Assembly: GCA_022651245.1 (NCBI GenBank) | Contig: JALCQM010000031.1 | Span: 1-32,935 of the forward strand | Reading direction: 5' to 3' | Length of the DNA stretch: 32,935 nt | From: Lactobacillus sp. | GTDB taxonomy: Bacteria > Bacillota > Bacilli > Lactobacillales > Lactobacillaceae | Shown here: positions 6,534 to 29,711 of the stretch, in pieces | Numbering within the stretch: the first letter of the stretch is position 1 | How the letters are laid out: every line of letters starts with the position of its first letter | The notes under the pieces: model-generated | Database searches by the model: none | What the model saw: only the letters and a program-made list of their open reading frames with translations | Told to the model about the DNA's origin: nothing | Translations under genes and position numbers: made by a program

Positions 6534-8703
6534 GATTAGTGTCCTTTAAAAAGTAGTTGATTCGGTGAGTCGTCAATAAACTATCCACCCACAACATCCC
6601 CGAATCCGCCGTCACCCACCATGGGACACCAGCCGAAGCTAGTGTTTGCAACGTCTCAGGGTGTGGATGACCATAACGATTCCCGCTGCCAGCAGAGATA
6701 AACGCAGCGCGTAACTGCCACTGGGCAATCAAATCCGGTGTGGTGGCAGTCCGCGACCCGTGGTGGGCGACCTTAAGGTAATCGACCGCTAAGTGCTGTG
6801 GGATCAACTCACGGGTTTCCACGCCTGCATCCGCATCGCCAGTAAATAACCAGCGACCGTCTCCAATTTTACCATAGAGCACGAGCGAATCCGCGTTTTT
6901 CTCGACGGCCGTCGCCGCTTTTGGTGCCACCACTTGCAAGGCAATGGGACCAACTGACAACGTCGCACCGCCCAAAACTGCTCGACTCGTGGTCACTCGG
7001 CCCGCCTTAGCCGCCTGAATCAAAGGGTGGTCAGCAGCTAGCGGCGTCGTCACTAACAATTGGACCGGAAACTGCCGGGTCAAAGCCGCCGCATCCCCAA
7101 CATGATCGGCATCGGCATGCGTCAAGACCAAGGTATCCAAGTGGGTGTACCCGCGGGCATACAAATAATTGACGATCACTCGCGTGGCAGGCGGCTGCCG
7201 ACTGGTCCCAAAAATCCGCCCCCCGGTATCGATTAACAACGTGCCTTGCTTGTTAGGGGCTTCGATCAGGATCGCGTCACCTTGCCCAACATCGAAAAGG
7301 CTGACCCGCGCCTCCGGATGCCAATTAGCGCTGCCATAAGCCAAAACGAGCCAAAGGCCAACATAACGCCAGCGTCCATGCGCCAACGCCAGGATCGCAA
7401 CCACCACCCCGCTGGCCGCAAGCGGCGTTGAAATTGCCCCAAAAACGACCTGCCCAGGAAGATTACCCAAGGTGGTCAGCCCTGCCTCACCACCGCGTAG
7501 CAGCAATTCTAACCACGGCACCAAGGCGCTGTCGGGCCACAACACCGCCAACACCAATAACGGCATCAACCCAACTTCAAAAAGCGGCACTAACAACCAA
7601 TTGAACACCCCGGTCAGCAAGTGAAAGCGGAAGGTATGCGCGATGACGACAGGTAAGCTCACCACTAATAAGCGCCATGACAGTCCCCATGCAGAAACGC
7701 GGGGAAGTAACAATAAGACCCCGGTCAACAAGTAGGTCAGCTGCCCGCCAAAGGTATACAAGACCATTGGCCGCCACGCTAGATTGCCGATCAAGACCAA
7801 ACTAAACACGTCTAGTCCTGTCAAATTCAACCCTAAACGGGCATTTACACTCAACCCCCAACGCATCCATACCGAACGGATCAGCCCCGCGCCACTTGGA
7901 ATCAAAATCAATAGTGCCGGAAGGCTAAAGACCAGCCCCCACTCTGCGATTTCGTGAGGAATGCGCAGCCGGTCAGTGAGCCATAGTAACGCGGCGACTA
8001 ACGCAAACAAATGGAGTCCGGAAACCGAAAAAAGGTGAAAAATACCTAGATTGATAAACGTCGTGCGCACTGGATCAAAATCTTGATCTAGCTGTCCCAG
8101 CAATAACCCTTTGGCATACCGGGCCACATACGGTGGTAGTGTCGCAATGCGCCGTTGCAATAAAACCCGCCAACGATAAAGCCGCGCGGGCAGCGACACC
8201 GCGGGCAAAACCTGCATGTGCAACGGCTGACGGGGCACGGTATAGGCTTGATGCAGCTGCGCCCAGGCATACTGCGCAAAATCAAACTCATATAGATTAC
8301 GGGCCCCAGCTACCCGTTGCGGCGGCTTTTGCCAACTGACCGTCACCGGGGTCGTCAGCTGGCTTAATTGCCGCGCTTGTGCTTCGGTTACCGTCACCTG
8401 CCCGCCGGTCGCCACCCCGTTGGCCGCTTGCCCCGTATAAGTGGCCAGCGTCCCTGTCACCTGCCAGGCACTCGGCATGACCACGATCGCACCCCGCGGG
8501 ACTGGTGGCGCAGCGCGCAGCTGGGCTTCATGCCACCCCAAGCCAAGCCCAACCAAGGCAAAAATCACGACCCCTCCTTTGGTCAGTGTCCAGCCCTGCC
8601 ATACCGCCCAGCCTAAAACGATGAGCCCAACAATATGCGGCCCCAGCACCGTCGTAATCCCACCGCCAACCGCGGCCGCGGCCACCCACCAACGCCCGCT
8701 CAT
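6520..8703 (-). CDS. comEC: ComEC/Rec2 family DNA internalisation channel protein
   Basis: ComEC forms the membrane channel that takes single-stranded DNA into the cytoplasm during transformation. The 727-residue product has the three expected parts: two N-terminal membrane helices followed by a soluble domain (about 1-180), the multi-spanning competence domain (about 190-450, including GLLLGQLDQDF and FSVSGLHLFAL), and a C-terminal metallo-beta-lactamase-like domain (about 465-710) with FDVGQGDAILIE, LTHADADHVGD, LFTGDAD and KVAHHGSR. No frameshift or truncation is visible. Its ATG overlaps the comEA stop as ATGA (8700-8703), which implies coupled translation. Many lactobacilli keep such genes without demonstrated natural transformation. 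Confidence 0.93.
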   Translation of the reverse strand: MSGRWWVAAAAVGGGITTVLGPHIVGLIVLGWAVWQGWTLTKGGVVIFALVGLGLGWHEAQLRAAPPVPRGAIVVMPSAWQVTGTLATYTGQAANGVATGGQVTVTEAQARQLSQLTTPVTVSWQKPPQRVAGARNLYEFDFAQYAWAQLHQAYTVPRQPLHMQVLPAVSLPARLYRWRVLLQRRIATLPPYVARYAKGLLLGQLDQDFDPVRTTFINLGIFHLFSVSGLHLFALVAALLWLTDRLRIPHEIAEWGLVFSLPALLILIPSGAGLIRSVWMRWGLSVNARLGLNLTGLDVFSLVLIGNLAWRPMVLYTFGGQLTYLLTGVLLLLPRVSAWGLSWRLLVVSLPVVIAHTFRFHLLTGVFNWLLVPLFEVGLMPLLVLAVLWPDSALVPWLELLLRGGEAGLTTLGNLPGQVVFGAISTPLAASGVVVAILALAHGRWRYVGLWLVLAYGSANWHPEARVSLFDVGQGDAILIEAPNKQGTLLIDTGGRIFGTSRQPPATRVIVNYLYARGYTHLDTLVLTHADADHVGDAAALTRQFPVQLLVTTPLAADHPLIQAAKAGRVTTSRAVLGGATLSVGPIALQVVAPKAATAVEKNADSLVLYGKIGDGRWLFTGDADAGVETRELIPQHLAVDYLKVAHHGSRTATTPDLIAQWQLRAAFISAGSGNRYGHPHPETLQTLASAGVPWWVTADSGMLWVDSLLTTHRINYFLKDTNHADH

Positions 8704-28182: not shown

Positions 28183-28446
28183 AATTATCTCATGATAATT
28201 CAACAGCCGTGGTGCTGCGACTCCTACTCATCATGTGGCACGTTTCACAGCCAGACACCTGTGACTATAACAGCTCGCCTTATCGCGACACCCATGTTTC
28301 GTTCCCCTCACGTCAAGCGTAGCGAAAAGCCCCCACTTGACGCAACTTTTTTGGTCGAAAAATGTTACACCGACCACCCATTCGTCACGTCGCCAAAGGT
28401 GGGCAGACATGCCTGAAAACTGCAAGATCACCACAACCCACAAAAA
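28183..28446. other. Gene-free stretch between pdhA and the P-type ATPase fragment
   Basis: No credible gene is seen. Short open frames on both strands are Cys/His/Trp-rich, lack ribosome binding sites and resemble no family. It holds a 7-bp inverted repeat AATTATC/GATAATT (28183-28200) and a hairpin with stem CGTCAAG/CTTGACG (28311-28342), followed on the plus strand by a T-rich run, resembling an orphan terminator. Confidence 0.6.
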
Positions 28447-28469
28447 AAGACCCGCTGTGAGCGAGTCTT
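28442..28469 (-). terminator. Rho-independent terminator of the M-box operon
   Basis: On the minus strand AAGAC and AGCG pair with CGCT and GTCTT across one mismatch, loop CAC, followed by seven T residues (28442-28448 are A on the plus strand). It is 14 bases past the stop of the P-type ATPase fragment. Confidence 0.83.
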
Positions 28470-28482
28470 CTGGTCATTTTGT

Positions 28483-29292
28483 TCATATCCAGCGTGACGA
28501 GACTGGGTCCTGGTTGTATCGGAACGCGACTTCTTTCGCGCGTTGCCGGAGTTGCCCAACCAGGGTTGTGTGGTCATTAAACCGATCGATTCTAACTTGA
28601 AACTGCTGCGTGGTACTAACCGCTAGTTGGCCGAGATGTGCCAGCCGCATTCCCAGCTGTGTCCAGCTAGCGCGAAATTGCAACTTGCACAGCGCCACTA
28701 AGCCGCTAAGCACAGTGCGCACCTCGACGCCAGACTTCGCAGTCAAAAATGGCATTAGCCGGGCCACGGCAAACCGTTGTGCCCCGACGGCCAAGACTTG
28801 AGCCTGCACTTCAGTGGTGATCCGGCTGCCTGCGATCACCTGGTCATGTGGTGTCGCTACCCGCAACGCAGCCAGCACCCATGCAAGGGGGCCGGTGATC
28901 GTCGCCTGTTGAGCCGACAAGGCCACGTCGACAGGAACAACGCTACCTGCTGGCAATAAAATTGTATCCCCAGGAACCAGTGCCCCGACTGGCCGTGGCC
29001 GAATCAAACCTTCACGAATCACTAAGACTTCTTTATGGGCGTTCGCAAATTCTTGTAACACCCGCCGGACAAGCACACTAGCCCCGATCCCAAGCAAGCT
29101 AAGGAGGATGAGCATCACAATCGCTAAATCACTGCCGATTGTCACTTCAAGGATGCTGGCACCACCAAGCAGGAGCAGGAGTGCTGGCACAATCGTCATG
29201 TGCGCGTTGTGGACATGCAGGTCTGGTTGTACCGTCAACTTTGCTTTTTGAACTTCATAGCGGGTCAACCCGCTGTTTACTTGCATCAACAT
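28483..29292 (-). CDS. N-terminal-only P-type ATPase protein (two TM segments plus actuator domain), M-box controlled
   Basis: The 269-residue protein matches the first third of a P-type cation ATPase: an N-terminal GLTRYEVQKA-like segment, TM1 (about 33-50), TM2 (about 55-75) and an actuator domain (about 87-180) with LVPGDTILLPAGSVVPVDVA and VIAGSRITTEVQAQVLAVG. The catalytic TGES loop reads TGPL (133-136), lacking the glutamate needed for dephosphorylation. No TM3-TM10, DKTGT phosphorylation site or nucleotide domain follows; the last 80 residues are unlike known ATPase parts. It therefore cannot pump by itself. The start is the ATG at 29290-29292, 6 bases after GAGGAG, not the TTG codons upstream. 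An M-box, an own promoter and a terminator immediately downstream argue for a functional, domesticated gene, though a decayed Mg2+ transporter is the alternative. Confidence 0.75.
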   Translation of the reverse strand: MLMQVNSGLTRYEVQKAKLTVQPDLHVHNAHMTIVPALLLLLGGASILEVTIGSDLAIVMLILLSLLGIGASVLVRRVLQEFANAHKEVLVIREGLIRPRPVGALVPGDTILLPAGSVVPVDVALSAQQATITGPLAWVLAALRVATPHDQVIAGSRITTEVQAQVLAVGAQRFAVARLMPFLTAKSGVEVRTVLSGLVALCKLQFRASWTQLGMRLAHLGQLAVSTTQQFQVRIDRFNDHTTLVGQLRQRAKEVAFRYNQDPVSSRWI

Positions 29293-29298
29293 CAACAA

Positions 29299-29318
29299 CT
29301 CCTCTCTTCCCAGAGAGG
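29299..29318 (-). promoter_or_regulatory. Hairpin covering the ribosome binding site of the ATPase fragment
   Basis: CCTCTC and GAGAGG (29301-29306 and 29313-29318) form a perfect 6-bp stem with a 6-base loop. On the minus strand the 3' arm is the first part of GAGAGGAG, the ribosome binding site of the ATPase-like gene, so pairing would hide it. The stop codon of the short ORF (29331-29333) lies 12 bases upstream of the stem. Confidence 0.55.
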
Positions 29319-29330
29319 CTTGCGATGCGC

Positions 29331-29423
29331 CTATTGACTGATTAAATCAAATGGTGGCACAATGACAAACCTTCCGGGATCTGCATTGTCGGGACTACCG
29401 CCATCAATCGCTGTTTGTTTCAT
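29331..29423 (-). CDS. Short 30-residue ORF between M-box and ATPase fragment
   Basis: A small ORF with a strong AAAGGTGG site 7 bases ahead of its ATG (29421-29423), ending in TAG. The peptide begins MKQTAIDGGSPDNADPGRF and continues hydrophobic with two adjacent prolines before a short tail. It has four prolines and four aspartates, no membrane segment and no family I recognise. Its position between the Mg2+ riboswitch terminator and the ribosome binding site hairpin of the next gene recalls a leader peptide (as in enterobacterial mgtL), but a free-standing small protein is possible. The strong ribosome binding site and spacing are the main support. Confidence 0.6.
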   Translation of the reverse strand: MKQTAIDGGSPDNADPGRFVIVPPFDLISQ

Positions 29424-29466
29424 GTGCTCACCACCTTTCATTCACTCGCCGTCATGCGCTTTGATA

Positions 29467-29675
29467 GAAAAAAGCGCACACCGAAAGGGTATGCGCGATC
29501 CTTGCATCCCAATCGTTTAGTTTTAGCACTATACGCCTAGAAGCAAGCTTCAGCTACGTTAGCGCAAGCCTTTGTAGACAAGCGCAGTTGACTCATTGGC
29601 ATCTCTGGATGTTTCTGAGCAGCAGCATTGTTCGTATAGGAGCCTCACCTAACGGAAAGCACCGTATTTTTAATG
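29467..29675 (-). ncRNA. M-box (ykoK-type) Mg2+ riboswitch with terminator
   Basis: On the minus strand the aptamer shows the diagnostic CGTTAGGTGAGGCTCCTATA, then GCTGCTGC, GAGATGCCAATGAGTCAACTG, and a distal CGTATAGTGCTAAA that pairs with the earlier CTATACG. These are the signature blocks of the M-box. It is followed by the terminator GCGCATACC..GGTGTGCGC (29474-29496, nine paired positions with one mismatch) and a T run (29467-29473 are A on the plus strand). In the family high Mg2+ folds the aptamer and ends transcription; low Mg2+ permits read-through, here into the short ORF and the ATPase-like gene. Confidence 0.92.
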
Positions 29676-29682
29676 CACCTAT

Positions 29683-29711
29683 ACTTTACCAGCTTGGGAC
29701 TTACCTGTCAA
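29683..29711 (-). promoter_or_regulatory. Promoter of the M-box unit
   Basis: Minus-strand perfect TTGACA (29706-29711), 17-base spacer, TAAAGT (29683-29688) with TGG before it (extended -10). It places the start point a few bases ahead of the M-box. Confidence 0.75.

Follow-up and report, generated by a model that had tools for sequence, protein, structure and literature searches.

Introduction

The M-box Mg2+ riboswitch (RF00380) is reported to stand almost always before corA, mgtE or mgtA, nramp-related genes being the exception (PMC4072509). Short leader open reading frames (ORFs) are described for two other Mg2+ transporter systems, viz. Salmonella mgtQ-mgtB, a PhoP-controlled operon in which an 8-codon ORF with needed Asp/Glu codons has a working transporter as its target (PMC8092293), and E. 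coli mgtA, whose leader MgtL acts through a Rho-dependent terminator (PMC11282234). Riboswitch targets were surveyed in 15 Lactobacillaceae genomes (PMC3766115). The subject here is a locus on the minus strand of a 32,935-nucleotide (nt) stretch of DNA (GCA_022651245.1, contig JALCQM010000031.1; hereafter the window), where an M-box precedes a 30-codon small ORF and a gene for a 269-residue fragment of a P-type ATPase. Computation establishes the anatomy of this locus, its conservation, the selection acting on it, leader helices that are better than those of shuffled sequences, and the sharing of the locus with other genera. The sequences make it most likely that the fragment is a conserved pseudo-ATPase which would be under double RNA control and act by contact. 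Genera are labelled g1-g40, where g1 is the genus of the window, Lacticaseibacillus.

The nearest described case to the leader is Salmonella mgtQ/mgtB. In both, codons of the short ORF pair downstream and the ribosome-binding site of the next gene lies in a hairpin. The present leader differs in carrying an M-box upstream, in the length of its ORF (30 codons), which mostly lacks acidic pairs, and in having a fragment as its target. With MgtL the likeness is that of a Mg2+-linked leader peptide containing Pro and acidic residues, and the small ORFs of g21 are rich in both. The M-box resembles other members of RF00380 in its aptamer score, its terminator architecture and its single copy upstream of an operon, but what follows it is a small ORF and the gene of a protein that cannot serve as a P-type pump. 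This protein shares with MgtA (the P3B-type Mg2+ ATPase, TIGR01524) an N-terminal segment, the first two transmembrane segments (TM1-2) and the first half of the actuator fold, and in g21 a full-length MgtA follows an M-box and small ORF at this same locus; however, the fragment lacks the TGES loop, the P domain, the N domain and the later membrane helices. The initial annotation of the window, made from the sequence alone, knew of no homologue of this layout. Sequence homologues have now been found in nearly every g1 species, whereas no description of the layout was found in the literature searched, and an unremarked listing in the supplementary lists of PMC3766115 may exist.

Organization of the locus and the encoded protein

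Read on the minus strand, the order of elements is a promoter-like site, the M-box, a terminator, the 30-codon ORF, a hairpin with a ribosome-binding site, the 269-codon ORF and a terminator. The promoter-like site (29683..29711; TTGACA-17-TAAAGT with TG, 10/12 matches) is followed by the aptamer at 29501..29663, which scores 122.5 bits against a gathering score of 44 (E 3.2e-27) and is the sole Rfam match in the window at gathering score. Directly downstream, the site scan places an intrinsic terminator-like hairpin followed by a T run (29474..29496), in agreement with the initial annotation of an M-box with its own promoter and terminator. In a 2-kilobase (kb) stretch, such sites are about as frequent as in shuffles (promoter-like 2 vs 1.3, terminator-like 2 vs 2.3) and their support therefore comes from position, not count. 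The earlier description of the layout is borne out, but it overlooked the small ORF (29331..29423, MKQTAIDGGSPDNADPGRFVIVPPFDLISQ). This ORF is situated between the M-box terminator and the fragment gene and has a strong Shine-Dalgarno (SD) region (29428..29438) able to pair with the ORF's own VPP codons. Inside these codons lies region 1 (TGTGCC, 29356..29361), the 5' arm of a stem termed 1:2, whose 3' arm is region 2 (GGCGCA, 29326..29331). Next comes the hairpin CCTCTCT-GGGA-AGAGAGG (29301..29318) with the ribosome-binding site of the fragment inside it. The fragment gene (28483..29292) encodes 269 amino acids (aa) from its ATG, or 271 from an upstream TTG, with GAGAGGAG as its SD sequence, and the hairpin and T run of a terminator lie 3' of it (28442..28468), seen in the fold though not flagged by the terminator-site scan; the initial annotation had noted an open frame, a strong ribosome-binding site and an adjoining terminator.

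The fragment consists of an N-terminal segment, TM1-2, an actuator domain without TGES, a long helix and a C-terminal NQDPVS motif. Its single Pfam match, to E1-E2_ATPase (PF00122; E 1.2e-7, above the cut-off), spans residues 87-174, covers the first half of the profile and marks it as containing the actuator domain of a P-type ATPase, as expected for a protein described earlier as having only the N-terminal segment, TM1-TM2 and the actuator, and the loop corresponding to TGES indeed reads TGPL. A TGES loop is absent from all 28 g1 fragments, a lone TGE in one of them (L006) lying by eye in another stretch, and a motif check found DKTG in none of the 28. No remnant of a P or N domain is present downstream of the window fragment or of any fragment tested, and a hidden P or N domain past the stop was rejected on this basis. 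In the AlphaFold2 model, built from 29 sequences (mean predicted local distance difference test 77.9, predicted TM-score 0.60), two membrane-like helices (35-52 and 54-82) precede a beta-rich domain (residues 88-168), whose ten-residue blocks score 87-95, and a long helix at 191-242 that is modelled less confidently. Of 287 Foldseek matches, the best 50 all belong to P-type ATPases, the top one with E 1.1e-8; the TM-scores of these 50 against the query reach only 0.30-0.36. As modelled, and as part of the explanation favoured below at slightly under an even chance, the product would be a small membrane protein in which TM1-2 are joined to an actuator domain without chemical activity, unable to pump.

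Near the C-terminus, an [NH]Q-x-[PT] motif (consensus FRYNQDPVS) is present in 28/28 g1 fragments. The wobble positions of this motif (last 15 codons) are unusually constant, viz. GTC in 25 and TCG/ACG in 26 of 27 rows, the row of L012 being left out, and this could be as if RNA mattered there.

Conservation and selection in Lacticaseibacillus

A homologue search in 150 relatives gave a match in 43 of them. In g1, 27 of the 30 genomes have a match that stands alone, its frame being open over 255-302 codons (two of the matches were partial at first and later read whole), and reading of the M-box locus of G020 revealed one more open fragment, so that the fragment is open in 28/30 genomes, with frames of 248-271 codons in all 28 kept loci. 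An alignment-based scan of named genomes detected 22 loci, every one of them from Lacticaseibacillus, and an exact-peptide scan of named genomes detected no relative. A profile search across the order (295 genomes) had its best whole-profile matches in g1, and the others among the matches listed were mostly to longer ATPase frames. The M-box is found in 26/30 g1 genomes, exactly one in each and at the fragment locus; none was seen in the stretches scanned of G003, G012, G017 and G019 (cmscan E<=5).

The fragments are 22-55% identical to that of the window within g1. The ratio of nonsynonymous to synonymous substitution rates (dN/dS), a comparison suggested beforehand, is 0.15-0.34 in the seven closest g1 pairs (dS below 0.7). 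Purifying selection acts on the fragments of g12, g25 and g37 as well (0.06-0.42 over the listed pairs). The view of the initial annotation that this is a retained gene and not fresh decay is upheld by the open frames and these ratios, and given the conservation and dN/dS a pseudogene is judged unlikely. Many broken or missing copies, which were to be expected under neutral decay, were not encountered. Only G019 looks broken, where the small ORF is kept along with the greater part of the fragment, the N-terminal motif of which lies, by eye, in another frame, and only G003 has nothing (a pdhA search of these two genomes was empty, in a search without a positive control). Relatives with a full-length ATPase at the locus, the other refuting observation named beforehand, do exist (g21), but this refutes the annotation in form only: they indicate the probable source of the gene, and the fragments are conserved and not decaying.

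Small ORF and leader RNA

The small ORF is present in 28/28 open g1 loci, with 27-33 codons, a DP in 27 and a PP in 22 of them. Over its first 24 codons the ratio of nonsynonymous to synonymous differences (pN/pS) is 0.60 in frame vs 0.98 and 1.45 in the other frames, a coding signal, and its indels are by eye multiples of three. Its synonymous sites are constrained (pS 0.449, as compared with 0.703 for the large ORF), which fits RNA pairing. In g13, g15, g21 and g25 the in-frame ratio is likewise the lowest of the three; in g12 it is about matched by one other frame, and the small ORF of g20 has no coding signal (0.77 vs 0.69 and 0.93). Acidic pairs in leader peptides have been tied to ribosome drop-off (PMC11282234), and such pairs occur in 13/13 g15, 6/6 g25 and 2/3 g21 small ORFs; for g1, where they occur in 1/28, a drop-off of this kind is unsupported.

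By a strict rule, a terminator-like hairpin follows the M-box in 21/28 g1 leaders, and two of the seven misses have no M-box. The arms of the hairpin holding the fragment SD co-vary in g1 (CCTCTCT/AGAGAGG, CTTCCCG/CGGGAAG, CCTCC/GGAGG and others). In 21 representatives chosen from the 28 leaders, its mean helix energy is -8.7 vs -3.2 for shuffled upstream sequence, with p<=0.05 in 14/21 and p 0.005 for the window leader, and the mean at 13 other gene starts in the window, used as controls, is -3.2. Outside g1, p<=0.05 was obtained in 4/4 g12 leaders and 1/1 of g11. Similar hairpins seen by eye in g21 and g25 were rejected after the shuffle test. The VPP codons also pair with the intergenic stretch to form stem 1:2 (TGTGCC/GGCGCA, GCTGCC/GGCAGC, ACCGCC/GGCGGT), the mean energy of which is -9.5 vs -3.9 when shuffled (p<=0.05 in 17/21 g1 leaders). 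RNAalifold, applied to 27 of the 28 leaders (L025, with a long insert, being left out), yields a helix of six pairs between the small-ORF SD and the VPP codons, two of them changed on both sides. A 2:3 stem that would free the fragment SD is seen by eye alone, with 3-5 pairs. The two pairings of the VPP codons are mutually exclusive, as they would be in an attenuator. With the ribosome-binding site of the fragment in a hairpin and small-ORF codons pairing downstream, the leader resembles a translational attenuator.

The same locus in other genera and the origin of the fragment

RF00380 has matches in 103 of 301 Lactobacillaceae genomes, from 16 of 40 genera, comprising 15 g1 genomes and 100 places elsewhere, and all of these 100 places were read, five of them with a 1.5 kb flank. 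A small ORF and a fragment follow the M-box in g11 (1 genome), g12 (4/4) and g25 (6/6), while in g21 (3) the small ORF is followed by a long ATPase gene (frames of 754, 878 and 878 aa). The small ORF occurs with no ATPase gene in g13 (14), g15 (13/14 places), g20 (14) and g17 (1). A long ATPase gene with no recognised small ORF is found in g5, g9, g10, g30 and g40, at 14/21 places in g37 (four seen in part) and at 4/8 in g14, where three further genes are preceded by short ORFs not clearly related to the small ORF and one place ends at a contig edge. Second M-boxes before a long ATPase gene, likewise with no recognised small ORF, are present in g12 (2) and g25 (1, G053). The five full-length proteins after an M-box that were scanned (from g10, g12, g21, g25 and g37) are MgtA, at 951-1066 bits. 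The g37 protein at L130 is a full-length MgtA-type ATPase (981.8 bits) with DKTGT present and no TGE found in its first 350 residues.

A deformylase gene adjoins the M-box in the window, in one genome each of g11, g12, g17 and g25, and in three of g21; in those read from g12 and g25, pdhABCD comes next. The g1 fragment profile matches 13/13 fragments tested from g11, g12, g25 and g37. Because full-length MgtA in g21 and the fragments of other genera share the deformylase locus, the window gene may most simply be interpreted, by sequence comparison, as a shortened and retained MgtA. A separate observation concerns g37, where in 7/14 genomes (L140-L144, L185, L186) the M-box precedes an MgtA half of 331-346 aa that ends before DKTGT and is under purifying selection; this half looks like an independent truncation.

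In g13, g15 and g20, where these loci have no ATPase gene, about 430 nt from the small ORF onwards (including L105, L112, L131 and L173) form a structured RNA that covaries strongly and has the small ORF inside it. The alignments hold 13, 13 and 14 loci, respectively, L187 and L106 being left out, and the RNAalifold energies are -47.6 vs -3.2 (standard deviation 1.7) for column-shuffled alignments in g13, -76.7 vs -29.3 (4.2) in g15 and -50.0 vs -3.6 (2.5) in g20; in the three genera, 25/71, 24/81 and 44/79 pairs, respectively, are changed on both sides. At gathering score, Rfam has nothing beyond the M-box and ribosomal RNA (rRNA) in 14 loci, and at E<=1 it gives one extra, chance-level microRNA match in three loci. 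This RNA is a candidate for a new RNA under Mg2+ control, and no description of an M-box with a small ORF and structured RNA lacking an ATPase gene was found in the literature searched.

Proposed mechanism and alternative explanations

The best explanation as a whole, to which we give not quite an even chance, is that of an attenuated leader in front of a retained, contact-acting pseudo-ATPase derived from MgtA. An old operon of M-box, small ORF and mgtA beside the deformylase gene would have lost the catalytic two thirds of MgtA, its first third being kept as a pseudo-ATPase. At low Mg2+, the M-box would presumably let transcription through its terminator, and ribosomes on the 30-codon ORF may then set whether the VPP codons pair with their own SD or with the intergenic stretch, which would decide whether the fragment SD remains in its hairpin. 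The fragment would most likely work by contact with another membrane protein, CorA or a Ca2+-type P-ATPase being more probable than MgtA. The assembly of the window's genome, about 90% complete, has two CorA, and no MgtE was found in it.

Several observations weigh against this explanation. Against solved structures, the profile of the fragment matches a fungal H+-ATPase (2e-14) far better than MgtA (4e-5), and the NCBIfam matches of the window fragment are weak and mixed (13.3 bits for TIGR01524, below the cut-off of 610.75), so that it is too diverged for assignment to MgtA on its own sequence. Its dN/dS of 0.23-0.76 in g1 pairs with dS 0.7-1.2 indicates that the constraint is moderate. In G012 (L027) and G017 (L026), the small ORF and open fragment are kept with no detectable M-box. 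With regard to the leader, RNAalifold recovers one of the three proposed stems and not the other two, the SD hairpin is weak in L003, L004 and L013 and no better than shuffles in g21 (0/3) and g25 (0/6), one of the 13 control gene starts (at 8703) has a stronger hairpin (-15.3), and the one acidic pair among the g1 small ORFs is not in that of the window.

It is also conceivable, though rather unlikely, that selection acts on the small-ORF peptide or its leader RNA, the ATPase fragment being a secondary passenger dropped in some lineages. The small ORF outlasts the ATPase gene in g13 (14/14 places), g15 (13/14), g20 (14/14) and g17 (1/1), and both its synonymous constraint and the covarying RNA of the ATPase-less loci in g13, g15 and g20 favour such a reading; however, the fragment is under purifying selection in g1, g12, g25 and g37 and open in nearly all g1 genomes, and the small ORF of g20 carries no coding signal. 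A slow decay, in which remnants of mgtA are being lost and translation, or RNA elements within the coding sequence, impose the constraint that remains, we regard as improbable. The fast divergence within g1, the moderate dN/dS at greater distance, the state of G019 and G003 and the near-constant wobble positions, which could mean an RNA function, agree with it, but it has to be set against open frames and a C-terminal motif in 28/28 kept loci, a close-pair dN/dS well below 1, and purifying selection in four genera.

Least probable of all, in our view, is that the fragment acts on full-length MgtA as a regulatory or dominant-negative partner; this is close to what the initial annotation had proposed in suggesting that it regulates, or competes with, a full-length Mg2+ ATPase. 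A further M-box before a full-length ATPase is indeed present in 2/4 g12 genomes, in G053 of g25 and in 6/7 g37 genomes with an MgtA half, one full-length protein from each of these genera has been confirmed as MgtA, and five Lacticaseibacillus genomes possess MgtA. However, 25/30 g1 genomes have no ATPase above the MgtA cut-off. The genome of the window is among these 25, and six of the 11 further P-type ATPases in it were scanned individually as well. As 28/30 genomes nevertheless keep the fragment, a role as MgtA partner cannot be general; MgtA was rejected as the partner accordingly. In each of the five genomes with MgtA (G005, G010, G023, G027 and G028), the single M-box and the gene for the full-length protein (1050-1073 bits) lie apart.

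An M-box is taken to mark a Mg2+ transport gene, but the only M-box of nearly the whole genus precedes a non-pump, which suggests that it has been rewired from a pump to a regulatory job. The fragment is under selection even in species with no recognisable MgtA, which would point to a Mg2+-linked role for a pseudo-ATPase, and the locus may represent a riboswitch stacked on a leader-peptide switch. More tentatively, in much of the Lactobacillaceae the riboswitch could have moved to a regulatory output, viz. a leader peptide with a dead MgtA fragment or, elsewhere, a structured RNA with a small ORF, the truncation having perhaps occurred more than once (in g37 and at the deformylase locus).

Other features of the M-box loci

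Downstream of the structured RNA, 8/10 loci viewed have an opposite-strand, symporter-like frame of 432-453 codons, followed in six of these eight by 23S and 5S rRNA; one such frame matches the dicarboxylate symporter of the window at 28% identity. At L075 (G089, g25), a second M-box is followed by an ATPase gene with an interrupted frame, as read over 1.5 kb. At L106 (G169, g15), the M-box precedes a gene for a 580-aa protein, a possible unusual M-box target, followed by an ABC-ATPase-like gene.
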